Shown here in pieces: positions 14,176 to 49,632 of a stretch of 53,332 bases of DNA. Source of the DNA: Alphaproteobacteria bacterium (GTDB taxonomy: Bacteria > Pseudomonadota > Alphaproteobacteria > Acetobacterales > Acetobacteraceae); contig JAPLOH010000327.1 of NCBI GenBank assembly GCA_026400845.1, forward strand, positions 1 to 53,332, given 5' to 3'. Numbering within the stretch: the stretch's first letter is position 1; each line of letters begins with the position of its first letter. A model generated the notes under the pieces. That model saw only the letters and a list, made by a program, of their open reading frames with translations. It searched no databases and was not told the DNA's origin. Position numbers and translations under genes: made by a program.

Positions 14176-16128
14176 TCAAGCGGGACGCGTCGTCGCCGCG
14201 CGCGCACGTGCAATGTCCGGCGGCATGGCCTCGGCGGCCAGCCGAGCGACCGCCGCATCGAGCGGCAGCAGTTCCTGCGCGTCGCCTCCGAGGCGGCGCA
14301 GCGCGACTGTACGGTTCTCAGCCTCCTTGCGCCCGACCACCACGATCGCCGGCACGTGCTGCACCGAATAGAGACGCACCTTGGCGTTGATCTTCTGGTT
14401 CGTGGTGTCGAGCACCACCTGCAATCCAGCGGCCCGCAGCGCGTCGGTGACTTCACGGGCGTAGTCGTCGGCGTCCGAGACGATCGTCGCCACCGCCACC
14501 TGCACCGGGGACATCCACATCGGGAAACGCCCGGCATATTGCTCGATGGTGATACCGAGGAAGCGCTCGAAACTGCCGAGGATGGCACGATGCAGCATCA
14601 CCGGGCGGTGGCGCATGCCGTCCTCGCCGACGTATTCGGCATCGAGCCGTTCGGGGAGGATGAAATCCACCTGCAAGGTGCCGCACTGCCAGTCCCGCCC
14701 GATAGCGTCACGCAGCACGAACTCCAGCTTCGGGCCGTAGAAGGCGCCCTCGCCGGGGTTGATGGTGTATTCCACCCCGGCATCGACACAGGCCCGCTCG
14801 AGCGCGCTTTCGGCCTTGTCCCACACCTCGTCCGTCCCCGCCCGAACGTCCGGCCGGGTGGAGAATTTCACGCGGAAACTCTCAAAGCCGAAATCGGCGT
14901 AGATCGAGGACAGCAAGGCGACGAAGCGGATGGTCTCTGGCCCGATCTGGTCCTCGGTGCAGAAGATATGCCCGTCATCCTGCTGGAAGGCGCGCACCCG
15001 CATGATGCCGTGCAACGCCCCGGAAGGCTCGTAGCGATGGTCCTGGCCGAACTCGGCGAGGCGCATCGGCAGGTCGCGATACGAGCGCATGCCGGTGCGG
15101 AACACCATCACCGCGCCCGGGCAGTTCATCGGCTTCAGTGCCAGCGTCTTTTCGTCCTCATCGACGCGGACCAGGAACATGTGGGCGCGGTAATTGTCCC
15201 AATGGCCTGACTTCTCCCACAGCACGCGATCCACCAACTGCGGGGTCTTGATTTCCTCGTAGCCGTTGGAATCGAGCCGGCGGCGGATATAGCGCTCGGC
15301 GGTTTGGTAGAGGCGCCAGCCCTTGGGGTGCCAGAAGATCGAGCCCGTCGCCTCCTCCTGGAGGTGAAAGAGCTGCATGTCCTTGCCGATGCGGCGATGG
15401 TCGCGCTTCTCCGCCTCCTCCAGCATGTGGAGATGGGCGTCCAGCTCCTTCTGGTCGCGCCAGGCGGTGCCGTAGATGCGGCTCAGCATGGCGTTGCGGT
15501 GATCGCCGCGCCAATAGGCGCCGGCTACTTTCATCAGCTTGAAGGCGGTGCCGACATCGCCGGTGCTGCGCATATGCGGGCCGCGGCAGAGGTCGATCCA
15601 GTCGCCCTGGGTGTAGAGGGTGATGGTCTCGGTGCCTGGCAGGTCCTGGATCAGCTCGGCCTTGTACTTCTCGCCCTTGGCCTGGAAGAAGGCGATGGCC
15701 TCGTTACGGTCGATCACGCTGCGCACGAAAGGCGCACCGCGGGCGACGATCTCGCGCATCTTGGCCTCGATGGCCGGGAAGTCCTCGGTGGTGAAGGGCT
15801 CGTTGCGGGCGAAGTCGTAGTAGAACCCGTTCTCGATCGAGGGGCCGATGGTCACCTGGGTGCCGGGGAACAGCTCCTGCACCGCTTCGGCCAACACATG
15901 GGCGGTATCGTGCCGGATCATCTCCAGCGCGACGTCGTCCTTGCGGGTGACGAACACCACCGCGGCATCGTCGGCGATCTCGCGCGACAGGTCCGACAAC
16001 GCGCCGTTCACCTTCATGGCGAGGGCGGCGCGGGCGAGGCCGGGGCCGATGGCGGCCGCGATCGTCGTGCCCGTCACCGGCCCGTCGAACTGGCGGACGG
16101 ATCCGTCGGGCAGGGTGATCGCGGGCAT
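14176..16128 (-). CDS. thrS: threonine--tRNA ligase
   Basis: TGS domain start [14 protein letters not shown], class II motifs, [46 protein letters not shown]. Confidence 0.97.
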
Positions 16129-16231: not shown

Positions 16232-16366
16232 GAAAGGAAGGAGTTCTTTTTTGAAAAAAAGAACCAAAAACTTTTTATCCGTTTGCTCCGCACTCTCCGT
16301 GGGGAGGGCGAAGCCAACGGATAAAAAGTTTTTGCTTCTTTTTCCAAAAAGAAGCGCTTCCTTCCT
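16232..16366. repeat. dispersed palindromic element, copy 1
   Basis: GAAAGGAAGGAGTTCTTTTTTGAAAAAAAGAACCAAAAACTTTTTATCCGTTTGCT...AGCCAACGGATAAAAAGTTTTTGCTTCTTTTTCCAAAAAGAAGCGCTTCCTTCCT; near-palindromic over the whole length. Confidence 0.9.
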
Positions 16367-16381
16367 GAACACCCGCAATGC

Positions 16382-16741
16382 TCAGCCAGGCGGCGGGGCG
16401 AAGACGCGCAGCCGGTGCCCGTCGGGGTCGGCGGCGAGGAAGGTGCGGCCGAAATCCATCTCGGCCGGCGTCTGGAGGATGGTGAGGCCGCGCGCCGACC
16501 AATCGGCGAAGGCGGCATCGACGTCGGGCTGCACGAAGGCAAGCTCGCCGCCGCCGGGCGCGCCGGCCGCCGGCGCCACCCCGTCGCGCCCCCACAGGCC
16601 GAGCATGACGCCTGATTTGAGCGCGAACATCGCGAAAGTTGGCGAGGCCTCCACCGGGGGATGGCCGAGCAGATCGGTGTAGAACGCCGCCGAGACGGTG
16701 GGGTTGGCGACATAGAGAAGAATGAAGCTGGGGTCGGACAT
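16382..16741 (-). CDS. VOC family (glyoxalase/bleomycin-resistance-like) protein
   Basis: MSDPSFILLYVANPTVSAAFYTDLLGHPPVEASPTFAMF...MDFGRTFLAADPDGHRLRVF. Confidence 0.88.
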   Translation of the reverse strand: MSDPSFILLYVANPTVSAAFYTDLLGHPPVEASPTFAMFALKSGVMLGLWGRDGVAPAAGAPGGGELAFVQPDVDAAFADWSARGLTILQTPAEMDFGRTFLAADPDGHRLRVFAPPPG

Positions 16742-40970: not shown

Positions 40971-41118
40971 GGGGAGGAGGGAAGGCAAGCGGTTCTTTTT
41001 TGAAAAAAAGAACCAAAAAACTTTTCGCGCTTGTATCGTGCTCGTCGGGGCCGAGTGTGAAGCAAACGGGGAAAAAGTTTTTGCTTCTTTTTTCAAAAAG
41101 AAGCGCTTTCTTCTCCCT
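40971..41118. repeat. dispersed palindromic element, copy 2
   Basis: GGTTCTTTTTTGAAAAAAAGAACCAAAAAACTTTT ... GAAAAAGTTTTTGCTTCTTTTTTCAAAAAGAAGCGC. Confidence 0.9.
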
Positions 41119-41132
41119 TTCCGCCAATGGTT

Positions 41133-42080
41133 TCAATTCACCAGGTGGCACGAGGCGATGCGTTTCTCCCCGACCGGGCGGAGCAGCGGCGGCTCGGTGT
41201 GGCACCTGGCGACGGCCAGCGGGCAGCGCGGGGCGAAGGCGCAGCCGGGCGGGGTGCCGAGCGGGCTGGGCGGATCGCCTTCGAGGATGGGGCGCTTGAG
41301 GCGTGCGATCGCCGGGTCCGGCACCGGGACAGCGTCGATCAGCGCGCGGGTGAAGGGATGGTGCGGTTGCCGCCAGACCTCGGCGGCGGGGCCGATCTCG
41401 ACGATGCGGCCGAGATACATCACCGCGATGCGATGGGCGAAGGTCTCGACCAAAGCGAGATCGTGGGAAATCACCAGATAGGCAATCCCGAGCTCGCGCT
41501 GGAGATCGGCGAGCAGGTTGATCACCTGGGCCTGGATCGAGACGTCGAGTGCGGAGACCGGTTCGTCGCAGACGATGAGGCGGGGGGTGAGGGACAGCGC
41601 GCGGGCGATGCCGATGCGCTGGCGCTGGCCGCCGGAGAATTCGTGCGGCAGGCGATGCCCCCATTCCGGCCGCAGCCCGACGCGGGCCATCAGCCAGGCG
41701 ACCCGGGCGTCGCGCTCGGCGGCAGTGCCGATGCGATGCACGTCGAGCGGTTCGCGGATGAGCTGGGCCACGCGGCGACGCGGGTTGAGGGAGGCGAAAG
41801 GGTCCTGGAAGACGAATTGCACGGCGCGTCGTGCGGCGAAGCGGGCGGTTCGGTCGGCTGTGGCAAGGTCCTGCCCTTCGAGCAGGATGCGTCCGGCTGT
41901 GGGGCGGACGAGGCCGACGATGGATTTGGCCAGCGTGGTTTTGCCGGAACCGGATTCGCCGACCAGGCCCAGGGTTTCACCGGCGGCGACTTCGAGCGAG
42001 ACACCGCGCACGGCGTGCAGCGGTCCCCCCGGGGTATCGAAGCGGCAATGCAGGTCCTCGATGGCGAGCAGCGGTATCAT
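41133..42080 (-). CDS. ABC transporter ATP-binding protein (DppF/OppF-like)
   Basis: [24 protein letters not shown]..., GESGSGKTT, FSGGQRQRIGIARAL, LIVCDEPVSALDVS; start overlaps upstream stop. Confidence 0.92.
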   Translation of the reverse strand: MIPLLAIEDLHCRFDTPGGPLHAVRGVSLEVAAGETLGLVGESGSGKTTLAKSIVGLVRPTAGRILLEGQDLATADRTARFAARRAVQFVFQDPFASLNPRRRVAQLIREPLDVHRIGTAAERDARVAWLMARVGLRPEWGHRLPHEFSGGQRQRIGIARALSLTPRLIVCDEPVSALDVSIQAQVINLLADLQRELGIAYLVISHDLALVETFAHRIAVMYLGRIVEIGPAAEVWRQPHHPFTRALIDAVPVPDPAIARLKRPILEGDPPSPLGTPPGCAFAPRCPLAVARCHTEPPLLRPVGEKRIASCHLVN

Positions 42081-43024: not shown

Positions 43025-43830
43025 TGCCGGCGTAGCCTTGGGTTGAGGGCATCGTTCAGGCCCTCGCCGAACAGGTTGAGGCCGAGCGCGGTGACCAGCA
43101 GGGCGCAGCCGGGGATCACCACGATGTACCAGGCCTGGCGCATCTGGTCCTTGCCCATGTTGATCATGTGCCCCCAGGTCATCACGTTGGGGTCGGACAG
43201 GCCGAGGAAGGACAGCCCGGCCTCCATCAGGATGGCGGTGGCGACCAGCACGGTGGCGGTGACGATCACCGGGGCCAGCGCGTTGGGCAGGATCTGCTGG
43301 AGGATGATGCGGGCGTCCGACATGCCGATCACCCGGCAGGACTGCACGAATTCGCGCTCGCGGAGGGAGAGGAATTCGCTCCGTACCAGGCGGGCGACGG
43401 CGGGCCAGGAAACCAGCGCGATGGCGGTGACGATGGTGGCGAGCGTTGTGCCGAGCACCACCAGCAGCACGATCGCCAGCATGAAGGGGGGGATGGTCTG
43501 GAACAGCTCGGTGAGCCGCATCAGCGCGTCATCGACGAGCCCGCGATAATAGCCGGCGAGCGCGCCGACCACGATGCCGATGCCGACCGCGGCGGCGGTG
43601 GAGGCGAGCCCGATCAGCAGCGAAGCCCGCGCGCCGTGGAACAGGTCGGCCATGATATCGCGCCCCAGGCTGTCGGTGCCGAGCGGCAGGCCAGGGGTGC
43701 CCGGCCACAGCAGCGGCTGGTCGATCATCGCGAAGGGGTCTTCGGGGAAGATCACCCCGGCCAGCCCTGCCATTGCGACCACCGCGAGCAGGATCGCGCC
43801 ACCCACCCACAAGGCGCCGTGGCGGGTCAT
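43021..43830 (-). CDS. ABC transporter permease (DppC-like)
   Basis: MTRHGALWVGGAILLAVVAMAG..., LGTDSLGRDIMADLFHGARASLLIG. Confidence 0.9.
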   Translation of the reverse strand: MTRHGALWVGGAILLAVVAMAGLAGVIFPEDPFAMIDQPLLWPGTPGLPLGTDSLGRDIMADLFHGARASLLIGLASTAAAVGIGIVVGALAGYYRGLVDDALMRLTELFQTIPPFMLAIVLLVVLGTTLATIVTAIALVSWPAVARLVRSEFLSLREREFVQSCRVIGMSDARIILQQILPNALAPVIVTATVLVATAILMEAGLSFLGLSDPNVMTWGHMINMGKDQMRQAWYIVVIPGCALLVTALGLNLFGEGLNDALNPRLRRQ

Positions 43831-44930
43831 CGCAGCTCCACCGCCGGGTTGATCACCACGTACAGAATGTCGACGACGAGATTGGCCAGCACCACGAATA
43901 CCGAGGACAGCACGAGGATGCTGAGCAGCAGGTTGATATCGCGTTGGAACACCGCATCGAACATCAGCCGGCCGATACCGGGCCAGGAGAACACCGTTTC
44001 GCCCAGCACGGCGCCGCCGAGGAAGGTTCCGACATTCATACCGACCATCGTTATCAGCGGCGGCAGGGCGTTGCGCAGCGCATGAACGAAGGCGATGCGG
44101 CGTTCCGGCATGCCCTTGGCGCGAGCGAAACGGATATGGTCGAGCCCCAGCACCTCCAGCATGGAGGCGCGCAGCAGGCGGGTGTAGACGGCGAGGAAGA
44201 AGCAGGCCTGGGTGGCGGCGGGCAGGATGAGATGCTGTCCGATGTCCAGGACATGGGCGAGGCCGGTGGCGCGCACCCGCATGTCGTACATACCGCCGGC
44301 GGGCAGCCAGTCGAGCCGCACGGAGAACAGCAGGATCAGCATCAGCCCGCTCCAGAACATCGGCGTCCCGTAGAGCAGCAGCACGATCAGGGAAATCACC
44401 CGGTCCACCGCGCGGCCAGCGAAGCGGGCGGCGGTGACGCCGAGCACGATGCCGCCGATCACCGCGAGGGTCATGGCGGTGCCCATCAGCAGCAGCGTCG
44501 CCGGCAGCCGTTCGAGGATGAGGCTCGCGACGGACTGGCCATAGCGCGACGAATACCCGAGATCGAAGGTGACGAGCCGAAGCAGGAAGTGCCACAACTG
44601 CACCGGCAGCGGCTGGTCGAGCCCGAAGCGCGCGCGCAATATTGCGAGATAGGCAGGATCCCCGGCACCGGCCTCACCGGCCAGCGCGTCCGCGGCGTCG
44701 CCGGGGGCCATATGCAGCAGGACGAAGTTGCAGACGGCGATGCCAAGCACGATCAGCAACGCCAGCGCCAGGCGGCGGGCGAGGAAGCAAGCGCTTCTTT
44801 TTGAAAAAAGAAGCCAAACCTTTTTACCCGCTCGCTCCGTACTCTCCGCGGAGAGCGCGGAGCCAACGGATGAAAGTTTTTTGGTTCTTTTTTTCAAAAA
44901 AGAACCGCTTCCTTCCCTTATTCGACCCAA
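43827..44930 (-). CDS. ABC transporter permease (DppB-like) with N-terminal region encoded by palindromic element copy 3 (start uncertain: TTG at 44930 or TTG at 44897)
   Basis: FLARRLALALLIVLGIAVCNFVLLHMAPGDAAD..., SWPGIGRLMFDAVFQRDINLL; no in-frame ATG near the expected start. Confidence 0.85.
   Translation of the reverse strand: MGRIREGSGSFLKKRTKKLSSVGSALSAESTERAGKKVWLLFSKRSACFLARRLALALLIVLGIAVCNFVLLHMAPGDAADALAGEAGAGDPAYLAILRARFGLDQPLPVQLWHFLLRLVTFDLGYSSRYGQSVASLILERLPATLLLMGTAMTLAVIGGIVLGVTAARFAGRAVDRVISLIVLLLYGTPMFWSGLMLILLFSVRLDWLPAGGMYDMRVRATGLAHVLDIGQHLILPAATQACFFLAVYTRLLRASMLEVLGLDHIRFARAKGMPERRIAFVHALRNALPPLITMVGMNVGTFLGGAVLGETVFSWPGIGRLMFDAVFQRDINLLLSILVLSSVFVVLANLVVDILYVVINPAVELR
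44781..44917. repeat. dispersed palindromic element, copy 3 (inverted relative to copies 1 and 2)
   Basis: GCGCTTCTTTTTGAAAAAAGAAGCCAAACCTTTTT...GGAGAGCGCGGAGCCAACGGATGAAAGTTTTTTGGTTCTTTTTTTCAAAAAAGAACCGCTTCCTTCC. Confidence 0.9.
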
Positions 44931-46531
44931 AGCTCCGCCCCATTTGCGCGCAGCCCATCCGCCCCGGCAATGAAATTATGCACCGTCTTGCTGGCAATGG
45001 AAATGCTGAGCGGCATGGCGAGCGGGATCAGCGGCAGGTCGCGCATGGCGATTTGCTGGAAGCGTTCCCACTGGGTGCGCCGCTTGCCGGCGTCGGTCTC
45101 GATGGCAGCGGCGTCGAGCACGGCGTCCATCTCCGGGTTGGCGTAGCCCGAGGCGTTGACCAGGAAGGTGCCTTTGCGGATGGCCTTGGAGTCATAATAG
45201 CGCTGCAAGCCGATCGTCGGGTCGGCGGTGACCGAGGCGGGCAGCAGGCTCAAGTCGAAATCGTACTCGGCGTAGATGCGGCGCAGGAAGCTCGGCACGT
45301 CGGAAATGCGGATTTCGACGTCGATGCCCGCGGACCGCAGGGACTGGCGGAGGAATTCGGCCTCGCGCTGGTAGACGTCGCTGATCGAGGGCACGTCGAG
45401 CCGGATTTTGAAGCGCATGCCCTCCGCGCCGCGTGGCGCGCCGGCGGCGTCCAGCATGGCGGCCGCCTTGGCGGGATTGTAGGGGTAACGGGGCACGTCG
45501 GTGCTGTGCCATTTCGTCAGCGTACTCGGGATCGGGCTGATCAGCGGCATCGCGAGGCCCGACCATACGACGCGAACCATGAGTTCGGAATTGATGGCGT
45601 GGCGGATCGCCTGGCGCACCTCGAGCTTGCCGAGCATGGGGTGGCGCAGGTTGAACTCCATGATGTCGAGGCTGTTGTTGAGCTCCTCGCCGCGATCCTC
45701 GACCTGGAATTTCGGGTTGGCACGGAAACTGGCGACCTCGCTGAGCGGCACCGGGGTGGTGCCGGCAAGTTGCAGTTCGCCGCGCTCGAAGGCCGCCGCG
45801 CGGGCGCCGGCGTCGGTGAAGCTGCGCACCACGAGCCGGTCGAGGTAGGGCTTGCCGGCGTCCCAATAGGTCGGGTTGCGCTCCATCTCGATGAAATTGC
45901 CGCGCTGCCATTGGGTGAGGCGGAAGGGGCCGGTGCCGATCGGGTTGTTGTTGCGCGGATTGGTGAGCGGGTCGCTGCCCTCATAGATGTGCTTCGGCAG
46001 GATCGGTGCCTCGGAGCTCGACAACGCGCTCATGATCGCCGGCGCCGGGCGGGACAGGCGGAAAATCGCGGTGTGATCGTCGGGCGTATCGACCGCGGTG
46101 ACGGGCGCGAGGGTGCTGCGGCCGCGCGGGTGGAACTTCTTCAGGAGTTCCATCACCGAGTAGGCGACATCCGCCGAGGTGAAAGGTTTGCCGTCATGCC
46201 AAGTGACGCCCTGCCGCAGGGTGAAGCTGATGGCGAGCCCGTCGGCGCTGACGTTCCAGGCGGTGGCGAGCAGGGGTTTGGGATTGATGTCGAAATCGTA
46301 GGACAGCAGGCCCTCGACGAATTTTGGGCCGATCACCGTGAGGGGGGCGGCGGTGTTGAAGGCGCAGACCAGCGATGCGGGCTCGGGGATGATGCTCATC
46401 ACCAGCGTGCCGCCGCGCTTGGGCGCCTGGGCCTTGGCGCCGATCGTCGTGGCGCCTGTCGTCGTGGCGGCGAGGGCGGCGCCGAGCAGGACATCGCGGC
46501 GGGCGACGGAAGCGGGGCGAGCGGCGGCCAT
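44918..46531 (-). CDS. ABC transporter substrate-binding protein (SBP_bac_5), Tat-like signal
   Basis: MAAARPASVARRDVLLGAALAATTTGATTIGAKAQAPKRGGTLVMSIIPEPASLV. Confidence 0.92.
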   Translation of the reverse strand: MAAARPASVARRDVLLGAALAATTTGATTIGAKAQAPKRGGTLVMSIIPEPASLVCAFNTAAPLTVIGPKFVEGLLSYDFDINPKPLLATAWNVSADGLAISFTLRQGVTWHDGKPFTSADVAYSVMELLKKFHPRGRSTLAPVTAVDTPDDHTAIFRLSRPAPAIMSALSSSEAPILPKHIYEGSDPLTNPRNNNPIGTGPFRLTQWQRGNFIEMERNPTYWDAGKPYLDRLVVRSFTDAGARAAAFERGELQLAGTTPVPLSEVASFRANPKFQVEDRGEELNNSLDIMEFNLRHPMLGKLEVRQAIRHAINSELMVRVVWSGLAMPLISPIPSTLTKWHSTDVPRYPYNPAKAAAMLDAAGAPRGAEGMRFKIRLDVPSISDVYQREAEFLRQSLRSAGIDVEIRISDVPSFLRRIYAEYDFDLSLLPASVTADPTIGLQRYYDSKAIRKGTFLVNASGYANPEMDAVLDAAAIETDAGKRRTQWERFQQIAMRDLPLIPLAMPLSISIASKTVHNFIAGADGLRANGAELWVE

Positions 46532-46665: not shown

Positions 46666-48300
46666 ATGGCCCGCACCGGAGCGGATATCCTCGCCCAAAG
46701 CCTCGTCGCGGCGGGGCTGACGCATGGGTTCCACGTCCCCGGCGAGGGGATTCTCGATCTCCTGGACGCGCTGGAACACCGCCATCGCGGAATCACGCTG
46801 GTGCATGGCCGCCACGAGGCCGGCATGGCGTTCGCGGCGATCGGCCATGCCCGCGCCAGTGGCGGCGTCGGCCTGTGCATCGTCGGCCGCGCGCCGGGGG
46901 CGCTCAACACCTGCCTAGCGCTGCATACCGCCTGGACCGATGCGGTGCCGCTGCTGCTGATCATCGGCCAGGCCGCTGCCGCCTTCGCCGGGCGCGAGGC
47001 GTTTCTCGATACCGCGTTCCATCAGGTGTTCGCGCCATTGGCCAAGCTGGTGGTGCAGATCGACGATCCTGCGCGAATTCCGGAAATGCTGAGCCGGGCA
47101 CTGCATGTCGCGCGTAGCGGACAACCCGGACCGGTGGTGCTGATCGTGCCGGAGGAGACGTTCCGCGCCACTGCCGATCCGGCGATCCTGTCGCCGGCGC
47201 CGCCCATCGCGCCGGCGCCGGGGGCGGGCGATATCGCCGCAATCGGGCAGGCATTGGCGGCGGCGGAGCGGCCGTTGCTGGTGTTGGGTGGCGGCGGCTG
47301 GAGTGACGCCGGGCTGGCCGCCGCCCGGCGCTTCGCCGAGGTGCAGGGAATGCCGGTACTGGTCTCCTACCGGCGGCGGGATTTGTTCGACAATTCGCAC
47401 CCGAACTTCATCGGCGAGCTTGGCATCGGGCTCGATCCGTCCCTTACCGCTCGCGTCGGGCAGGCCGATCTTCTGCTGGTGCTGAACATGCGGCTCGGCG
47501 AGTTGAACACCATCGGCGAGGGGTTCCACGGCTTCAGCCTGTTGGCGGCGCCGCGGCCGGCGATGCGGCTGATCCATATCCATGGCGATGCGGCGGAGTT
47601 GAACCGGGTCTACCAGGCCGATCACGCCGTGCTCGCGGCACCCGAACAGGCCGCTCTGGCGCTGGCAGTGCTGCCGCCGGGGCGGGATCGCGCGGCCTGG
47701 CGGGAGGCAGGGCGGGCGGCGTATTTGGCGCATCACACCGGCGGCGCCTGCCCGGGGCCGCTCGACCTCACGGCGGTATTCGGCGAATTGCGCGCCGCCC
47801 TGCCGGCCGATGCCATCCTCACTGTTGGCGCCGGGGCCTATGCGCTGTGGGCGCAGCGCTATTTCCCGTTTCACCGCCCGCGCACCCAGCTCGGCCCGAA
47901 AAGCGGCGCCATGGGCTACGGCCTCCCGGCGGCGATCGGCGCGGCGCTGGCTTGCCCGATCCGCCCGGTGGTGGCGCTGGCCGGGGATGGCTGCTTCATG
48001 ATGACCGCCGAGGAACTGGCGACCGCCGTGCATCACCGGTTGCGTCTGGTGGTGCTGGTGCTCGACAACGCCAGCTACGGGGCGATCCGCCTCGGCCAGG
48101 AACGCGCCTTTGGCCGCCCGACCGGGGTGGCGCTGACCAATCCCGATTTCGTCGCCTTCGCCCGCAGCTTCGGCGCCATGGCCGAGCGCGTGGCCGAGAC
48201 CGCCGCCTTCGCGCCGGCGCTGGCGCGTGCGCTCGGGCATGACGGGGTGAGCCTGCTGCATCTCGTGGTGCCGCCGGAGGCGACGCGGCCGCCCCGATGA
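46666..48300 (+). CDS. thiamine pyrophosphate-dependent enzyme (acetolactate synthase-like)
   Basis: HGFHVPGEGILDLLDALE, RHEAGMAFAAIGHARASGGVGLCIV, VVALAGDGCFMMTAEELATAVHHRLRLVVLVLDN. Confidence 0.9.
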   Translation: MARTGADILAQSLVAAGLTHGFHVPGEGILDLLDALEHRHRGITLVHGRHEAGMAFAAIGHARASGGVGLCIVGRAPGALNTCLALHTAWTDAVPLLLIIGQAAAAFAGREAFLDTAFHQVFAPLAKLVVQIDDPARIPEMLSRALHVARSGQPGPVVLIVPEETFRATADPAILSPAPPIAPAPGAGDIAAIGQALAAAERPLLVLGGGGWSDAGLAAARRFAEVQGMPVLVSYRRRDLFDNSHPNFIGELGIGLDPSLTARVGQADLLLVLNMRLGELNTIGEGFHGFSLLAAPRPAMRLIHIHGDAAELNRVYQADHAVLAAPEQAALALAVLPPGRDRAAWREAGRAAYLAHHTGGACPGPLDLTAVFGELRAALPADAILTVGAGAYALWAQRYFPFHRPRTQLGPKSGAMGYGLPAAIGAALACPIRPVVALAGDGCFMMTAEELATAVHHRLRLVVLVLDNASYGAIRLGQERAFGRPTGVALTNPDFVAFARSFGAMAERVAETAAFAPALARALGHDGVSLLHLVVPPEATRPPR

Positions 48301-49595
48301 ACCGACGTGTCATCATCGTCGGCGCCGGAATCGCCGGGTTGTCGGCCGCGCATGCGCTGGCCAAGCGCGGCATTGCGGTGCGCGTGCTGGAGGCGGCCGA
48401 CCAGCCGGGCGGGCGCATGGCCGAGCGGGTGGACGGGCCGATCCGGTACGGCACCGGGGCGCGGCTGGTATATCCGTTCAGCCGCTCGTTTTTTCGCCTG
48501 GTGCGCGAGATGGGGCTCCAGGCCGATCTCGTCCCGATGCGCGGGCTGGCGGCGACCGGCACGGCGGAGGGGATCGATTTTCGCATCCCCCTGCTGCCCG
48601 AGGCCGGCTTGCTACGCTCGCCGGTGCTCGGCTGGGGCGACAGGGCGCGGCTCGGGTTGCTGCTGGCCGATCTGCTGCGCCGGCGCTTCGGCAGCGACGC
48701 CGACGACCTCACCAGCGGGCCGGATGACGAAACGCTCGCCGACTATATCGCCCGCCTCGCCGGGCGGCGCTTTCTCGAGCGCTACATCGCTCCGGTGTTT
48801 CGCGGCACGCGGAGCTGGAACGTCGATGAGGTCTCGGCGGGGTTCTTCACCTCCACGACGTCGCGGCTGCTTGGCCATTCCACTGTCTATGGGTTTCGCG
48901 GCGGCATCGGGCAGCTCACCGCGGCACTCGCGGCGCAAACCGATGTCACCTACGGCGCCGAGGTGGAGCGGATCACGCCGCGCCCGGGCGGCGCGCGGGT
49001 GCTGTGGTGGGCCCGCGGCGCCCGGCACGATGCCGAGGCCGATGCGGTGATTTGCGCCATCGAGGGGGCGAAGGTGGCGGAGATCACGGCGCTCGATGAT
49101 GCGCAGGCCGCGTTCTTCGGAGCTGTGCGCTACAACCCGGTCGGCATCGTGCACTACGCGCTGCGGGAGGATGTGGCGCCGATGCTGCGCTTCTTGCCAC
49201 CGGAGATGGGCGGCGCGATCGCCACCTACCAGCAAGGCCCCGGCGCGCGCCTGTTCTGCCAGCTCACCCCCGAAGCCTCCGCCGCCGCCCTGCGAGACGG
49301 GCGGACCGGCGATCTCGACGGCATCATCCGCGCCGATCTGCGCCGCCTGTTCCCCGCGATCGACGCGCAGGAGGCCCATCGCGTCAACCAGTGGATCGCC
49401 CATAAGCTGCCGGTTCCCTATCCCGGATATGCCACACGGCTTGCCGAATTCCGCGCCCATCAGGAGTCGGAGCGGCAGGCGATCTATTTCGCGGGGGATT
49501 ATATGGCGCAGGCGCTGGTCACCGGGGCGTGTCGGAGTGGGCTTGAAACGGGCGCCTTGATCGCGCGGCATTTGAAGGAAGGGGTTCTTTTTTGA
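48297..49595 (+). CDS. FAD-dependent oxidoreductase (amine oxidase/protoporphyrinogen oxidase-like)
   Basis: RRVIIVGAGIAGLSAAHALAKRGIAVRVLEAADQPGGRMAE; stop codon lies inside palindromic half-element. Confidence 0.9.
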   Translation: MNRRVIIVGAGIAGLSAAHALAKRGIAVRVLEAADQPGGRMAERVDGPIRYGTGARLVYPFSRSFFRLVREMGLQADLVPMRGLAATGTAEGIDFRIPLLPEAGLLRSPVLGWGDRARLGLLLADLLRRRFGSDADDLTSGPDDETLADYIARLAGRRFLERYIAPVFRGTRSWNVDEVSAGFFTSTTSRLLGHSTVYGFRGGIGQLTAALAAQTDVTYGAEVERITPRPGGARVLWWARGARHDAEADAVICAIEGAKVAEITALDDAQAAFFGAVRYNPVGIVHYALREDVAPMLRFLPPEMGGAIATYQQGPGARLFCQLTPEASAAALRDGRTGDLDGIIRADLRRLFPAIDAQEAHRVNQWIAHKLPVPYPGYATRLAEFRAHQESERQAIYFAGDYMAQALVTGACRSGLETGALIARHLKEGVLF

Positions 49596-49632
49596 AAAAA
49601 AGAACTAAAAGACTTTTGCTCATTTTTCTTTG
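49573..49632. repeat. half copy (single arm) of the dispersed palindromic element, copy 4
   Basis: GAAGGAAGGGGTTCTTTTTTGAAAAAAAGAACTAAAAGACTTTTGCTC, left arm only. Confidence 0.85.

Follow-up and report, generated by a model that had tools for sequence, protein, structure and literature searches.

A palindromic repeat of about 135 bp occurs four times in the 53,332-nucleotide stretch of Acetobacteraceae DNA that was analysed here (the window, contig JAPLOH010000327.1), and it belongs to a real, mobile and family-wide class of dispersed repeats with an unusually strict placement at the ends of genes. The first full copy (16232..16367, plus strand) lies between the 3′ end of gene 16382–16741, which we take to encode a VOC protein, and the start of gene 14176–16128, both of which are read from the minus strand. 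It is made up of a left arm hairpin of the GG type (16243..16264, plus strand, GTTCTTTTTTGAAAAAAAGAAC), a central GC-rich dyad (16277..16322, plus strand, ATCCGTTTGCTCC...GAAGCCAACGGAT) and a right arm hairpin of the GC type (16334..16355, plus strand, GCTTCTTTTTCCAAAAAGAAGC). The second full copy (40981..41114, plus strand) occupies a convergent gap 3′ of the minus-strand gene 41133–42080, presumably coding for OppF. The third (44783..44916, minus strand) is located between the stop of gene 44918–46531 and the start of gene 43827–44759, two minus-strand genes that we assume to specify a solute-binding protein (SBP) and its permease within a transporter operon. The position of the third copy, between a solute-binding-protein gene and a permease gene, is that of the repetitive extragenic palindromic (REP) sequence between malE and malF of E. 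coli, and the copy is common to this genome and that of G165, another species of the genus, at the orthologous site.

The fourth copy is decayed, with one arm left (49573..49620, plus strand), and lies at the 3′ end of the plus-strand gene 48297–49595, the stop codon (TGA, 49593–49595) and last codons of which come from the copy itself; two further genes in the sampled contigs likewise end on a stop and last residues given by the element. The full copies are 14–15 nt (copy 1, to 16382), 14–18 nt (copy 2, to 41133) and ~1 nt (copy 3, to 44918) from the nearest stop. An earlier, sequence-only reading of the window had described this recurring layout, its distances to the VOC, OppF and SBP stops and an arm containing the stop of an FAD-oxidoreductase gene, all of which was borne out by direct reading of the copies and by seven matches to the arm pattern in the window, versus 0.00 expected from 100 shuffles. 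Its count of three full copies also stands, whereas what it had called a half copy is the remnant of a full one, the orthologous site in G165 (L132:8995–9093) being occupied by a full copy.

Each unit consists of two inverted, A/T-rich hairpin arms around a GC-rich hairpin, the whole being a near palindrome. The arms follow the layout GGAAG-GGTTCTTTTTTGAAAAAAAGAACC-AAAAAACTTTT and are slightly unlike (GGTTC..GAACC in the GG type, GCTTC..GAAGC in the GC type), so that each copy has an orientation. The proposal that the whole unit can fold as one long hairpin was confirmed for the RNA of copy 1 on either strand, with −67.8 kcal/mol on the plus strand (z = −8.4) and −71.8 kcal/mol on the minus strand (z = −9.6) relative to shuffles. 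In an alignment of 32 copies, which were selected for their similarity to one copy and understate the real diversity, the arms diverged by 1–2% and the GC-rich centre by 15%. Along the long stem, i.e., the centre with the inner A/T stretches, 88% of the cells held standard pairs, compared to 37–54% when the partners were slid, and 26 two-sided changes were counted versus 17.6 in shuffles. Because the arms hardly diverge and the centre is variable yet paired, the arms are taken to be kept as sequence and the centre as a hairpin. The ~45-nt arm unit (AAGGAAGCAGTTCTTTTTTGAAAAAAAGAACCAAAAAACTTTT) was also found in other genera (as in genome G080), frequently with a single recognisable arm.

The family extends far beyond the window, as a search with the pattern TTCTTTTTN{0,4}AAAAAGAA gave 265 matches in the genome to which the window belongs (5.4 Mb, 369 contigs) and none for the reversed-pattern control. 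A DNA search of the same genome scored 40 copies out of 242 candidates, and 779 kb of its contigs contained 27 full copies, with arm starts 88–94 bp apart, and 22 copies with one recognisable arm. The genome holds several hundred copies, the density in these contigs serving as an upper guide since they were partly picked for holding copies. Four other species of the genus had 115–331 arm matches each, and matches were patchy across the GTDB family, being present in 80 of 250 genomes, the number of arms ranging from 0 to 1125 and swinging widely within single genera (213, 171, 2 and 2 in g96). The longer arm pattern had no match in ~390 genomes from the rest of the class. Named matches belonged to Roseomonas, Pseudoroseomonas, Acidiphilium, Gluconacetobacter and Rhodovastum and to metagenome-assembled genomes (MAGs) labelled Asaia, the remainder being MAGs of unclassified Acetobacteraceae, Rhodospirillales or Proteobacteria. 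No Rfam family matched the element at the gathering score, and neither the arm sequence nor any account of such a repeat in the Acetobacteraceae was found in the literature searched, which did not extend to subscription papers; as far as searched, the dispersed repeat is new to the literature.

That the copies sit at gene 3′ ends had been noticed from the window, and this was upheld far beyond random intergenic placement when gene ends were taken from a home-made hexamer gene caller, the placement statistics for the window's own genome being those of the 779 kb of contigs mentioned above. Not one of 181 copies in four genomes (49 in its own, 132 in three others) was inside a gene, and 37 of the 49 were within 20 bp of a gene 3′ end, a strong enrichment over the 5.3 of the null (maximum 15 in 5000 draws). 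Convergent junctions carried 18 copies (7.4 expected) and divergent ones 3 (15 expected), a difference with p = 8e-4 in this genome and 4e-4 in the three others pooled. Expressed as occupancy, 26% of tight convergent junctions, 12.5% of wide co-directional, 3% of tight co-directional (operon-like) and 3% of divergent junctions were filled. In G080, 21 of 34 sampled convergent junctions carried the element, and the placement at gene 3′ ends was also found in other genera. The distance from stop to arm was mostly 7–30 nt (median 16), the end of the element frequently overlapped the stop (TAAGGAAG, TGAAGGAAG, TAGGAAGC), and of 66 single arms, 47 had the GGAAG end facing the stop codon (p = 8e-4). 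Such placement fits insertion targeting and selection after insertion alike. The order of occupancy, high at the ends of transcription units and low within operons and in promoter regions, is expected of a terminator, or of an element that is tolerated only where it is non-polar.

Orthologous junctions in four congeneric species (including G165, G208, G020 and G111) were compared with those of the window's own genome. Site A (C125:106794) was filled in the window's own genome and in G165 and empty in G208 and G020. Site D (C40:883), filled in the same two, had no copy in G111, G020 and G208. In G165, site B (C83:31204) was empty, as was probably site C (C83:36606). Site E (G208:C248) held a copy in G208 but none in the own genome or G165. 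The element family is mobile, since filled and empty sites exist at the same gene junction among species of one genus. At site E, the convergent genes overlap by ~12 bp in the own genome and G165 but not in G208, where the last codons of both are nonetheless intact; insertion thus appears to have doubled the overlap. At site B a similar repetition of ~10 bp is present, and at sites A and D one of 4–5 bp only. Since 64 copies showed no excess of flanking direct repeats, target duplication cannot be called general; the two single sites suggest a length of 10–12 bp.

On balance, the reading that we favour is that of a family-specific, non-autonomous mobile repeat of ~135 bp, resembling the REP doublets forming hairpins (REPINs) and the miniature inverted-repeat transposable elements (MITEs), that serves as a bidirectional terminator or mRNA 3′-end hairpin. 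The element has the terminal inverted repeats of a MITE, and its inverted pair of conserved palindromic units around a variable, hairpin-forming centre is the architecture of a REPIN. It would have spread through Acetobacteraceae genomes by means of a putative trans-acting enzyme that recognises the arms, a suggestion made because the arms are conserved, and gene 3′ ends would be the places where it is retained or to which it is directed. A transcript arriving from either side would comprise the first arm and the A-run, fold the GC hairpin and then run into the T-rich strand of the far arm. The centre hairpin has a median of −32.7 kcal/mol, and on both strands the 17-nt window that comes after it, across the edge of the far arm, contains 12 T. 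A GC hairpin preceding a T-rich stretch on both strands makes bidirectional termination plausible, and the element probably acts as a terminator; of the role in 3′ ends, termination or mRNA stability that had been proposed from the window, the placement is observed and the role fits the anatomy. The bidirectional intrinsic terminators of convergent genes show an apparent likeness to the element, with a GC hairpin between an A-run and a T-run on both strands and a preference for convergent junctions. Ordinary terminators share structure only, whereas the present element is a conserved ~45-nt sequence at unrelated loci and across genera.

Several results weigh against this combined reading. Simple terminator scans did not call the central hairpin, and their total for the window was near the shuffle mean. 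In tests of single genomes, significance was reached for G080, and the tight-convergent excess was not significant in G178 or G153. Flanking direct repeats showed no excess over 64 copies, and a transposase-bearing (autonomous) version was not found in ~2 Mb of fetched sequence, which is less than a whole-genome search. Finally, nine copies, about one third of those at co-directional junctions, are in operon-like gaps of up to 40 bp, some of them inside transporter operons (sites A and D), and there polarity would be expected of a strong terminator. These copies may be better explained as partial terminators or as hairpins that protect the mRNA, the classical REP between malE and malF being such a protecting hairpin.

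If the favoured reading is true, mobility is tied to gene ends in a high-copy repeat that has gone undescribed throughout a bacterial family, and the repeat would lend itself naturally to testing how genomes acquire terminators and whether mobile repeats persist for ending transcripts. The differences within genera (2 to 213 copies) would allow the same genes to be compared directly with and without the element. A bolder version, which we hold only tentatively and regard as unlikely, is that of a mobile terminator independent of REP-associated tyrosine transposases (RAYTs), moved by a new kind of transposition, inserting at gene 3′ ends and having taken over termination in some genomes, such as G080 with its many filled convergent junctions; short gene overlaps would, in this same tentative scheme, be duplicated on insertion, so that both genes survive.

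Possible, though likewise doubtful, is a purely selfish element without a host role, the insertion of which is targeted to the neighbourhood of stop codons or to abutting gene ends. The narrow offset from stop to arm and the frequent overlap of the element end with the stop speak in its favour, as do sites E and B, which look like a 10–12 bp duplication of overlapping gene ends on insertion, and the conservation of the arm sequence across genera, as expected of a transposase site. Targeting to stops alone, however, predicts at most a twofold occupancy of tight convergent over tight co-directional junctions, compared to the 26% versus 3% observed in the own genome, although the effect of targeting could be reinforced if polar insertions were selected against. 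The missing general target duplication among the 64 copies also counts against selfish targeting.

It is rather improbable that the repeat is a MITE of a classical DDE insertion sequence (IS) with shared ends, the parent of which was lost or unsampled. Its terminal inverted repeats, length, extragenic position and empty sites are MITE-like, and the possible 10–12 bp duplications at two sites would agree. However, no fixed target duplication was seen in the 64 copies, and 16 inverted arm pairs 0.13–4 kb apart contained no intact IS with the ends of the element. The inspected pairs bracket unrelated genes, the only transposase among them being of the IS1595 type (L167:964–3081, G080:C10), the gene of which lies between two arms, apparently as an insertion into a copy; the search for an autonomous parent among these pairs was thus without success. 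Nor was any catalogued family or transposase-bearing version found that would make the element a known IS or MITE with transposase-defined ends, which the sequence-only reading had kept in view. The enterobacterial ERIC/IRU (127 bp), the Correia elements of Neisseria and the pneumococcal RUP are comparable MITE-like palindromes of 100–155 bp, intergenic and often transcribed, and the ERIC-like RU-1 of 127 bp is also among such repeats. ERIC/IRU, Correia elements and RUP insert at TA with duplication of the TA, whereas no TA insertion rule was apparent for the present element, which also has no sequence match in Rfam.

Very improbable is a REPIN or bacterial interspersed mosaic element (BIME) of a resident RAYT system, despite the same architecture of an inverted palindromic pair with conserved ends and a variable centre in hundreds of copies. 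RAYT genes were commoner in arm-rich genomes (22/40 versus 29/210, odds ratio 7.6, uncorrected for ancestry), but 18 of the 40 arm-rich genomes had no RAYT match, several of them being more than 95% complete, and arms did not bracket any of 41 RAYT loci, whether or not the genome carried the family. The two RAYT genes in the own genome (G000:C318:21187–21624, L071, and G000:C363:53234–53671, L072; NCBIfam NF047646) are without element arms within 3 kb and bear or adjoin a different, GTAG-type REP (CCGTAGGGTGGGAAAGCG...TCCCACC), the second being situated among inverted copies of it (CCGTAGGGTGGGAAAGCGAAGCGTATCCCACC) that form a separate REP family. RAYT was therefore rejected as the cognate mover; given the statistical association, there may be an indirect link to the element. 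The REPINs and BIMEs described by Bertels and Rainey (2011, PMC3116915) are similar in their inverted-pair hairpins, conserved ends and variable centres, extragenic location in hundreds, occurrence as singlets and doublets and insertion polymorphism. The REPINs of SBW25 are reported to be distributed randomly in extragenic space (PMC3116915), whereas the element is placed strongly non-randomly, at gene 3′ ends; a further difference is that the REP carried by the resident RAYTs is another one. GTAG/CGTC-tagged REPs are also palindromic and near coding regions, and the ends of GTAG REPs often supply the stop codon of the flanking open reading frame (PMC3733652), but in the alignment of 32 copies the element had neither a GTAG nor a CGTC tag and its arm core is A/T-rich (TTCTTTTTT..AAAAAAGAA). 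The term REP/BIME-like that had been applied from the window is thus apt as a description, for short palindromic units, single or in inverted pairs, in hundreds of extragenic copies, and is not supported as membership, the RAYTs being flanked by another REP.

A host-maintained sequence of the uptake type or for binding of a nucleoid protein, forming terminators by chance much as inverted DNA uptake sequences form terminators in Neisseria, is hardly credible: the arms are conserved as sequence as well as structure and are located at gene ends, but the unit is an insertion of ~135 bp with empty sites, is absent from genes (0/181) and differs 100-fold within a genus, unlike uptake sequences.

Outside of the family, short arm matches of 92–95% were seen in the unrelated records MG945182.1 (5906–5942) and Bacteroides and Parabacteroides plasmids, and these are probably look-alike A/T terminators. 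Short matches from Bacteroides, Enterococcus and Microviridae were put down to chance similarity between A/T palindromes. Among plasmid and phage records, only two copies of the element were found, both on Pseudoroseomonas plasmids, one of which fills the exact gap between two convergent stops (pL11-B, annotated by PGAP), while the other lies behind the 3′ end of a minus-strand gene.
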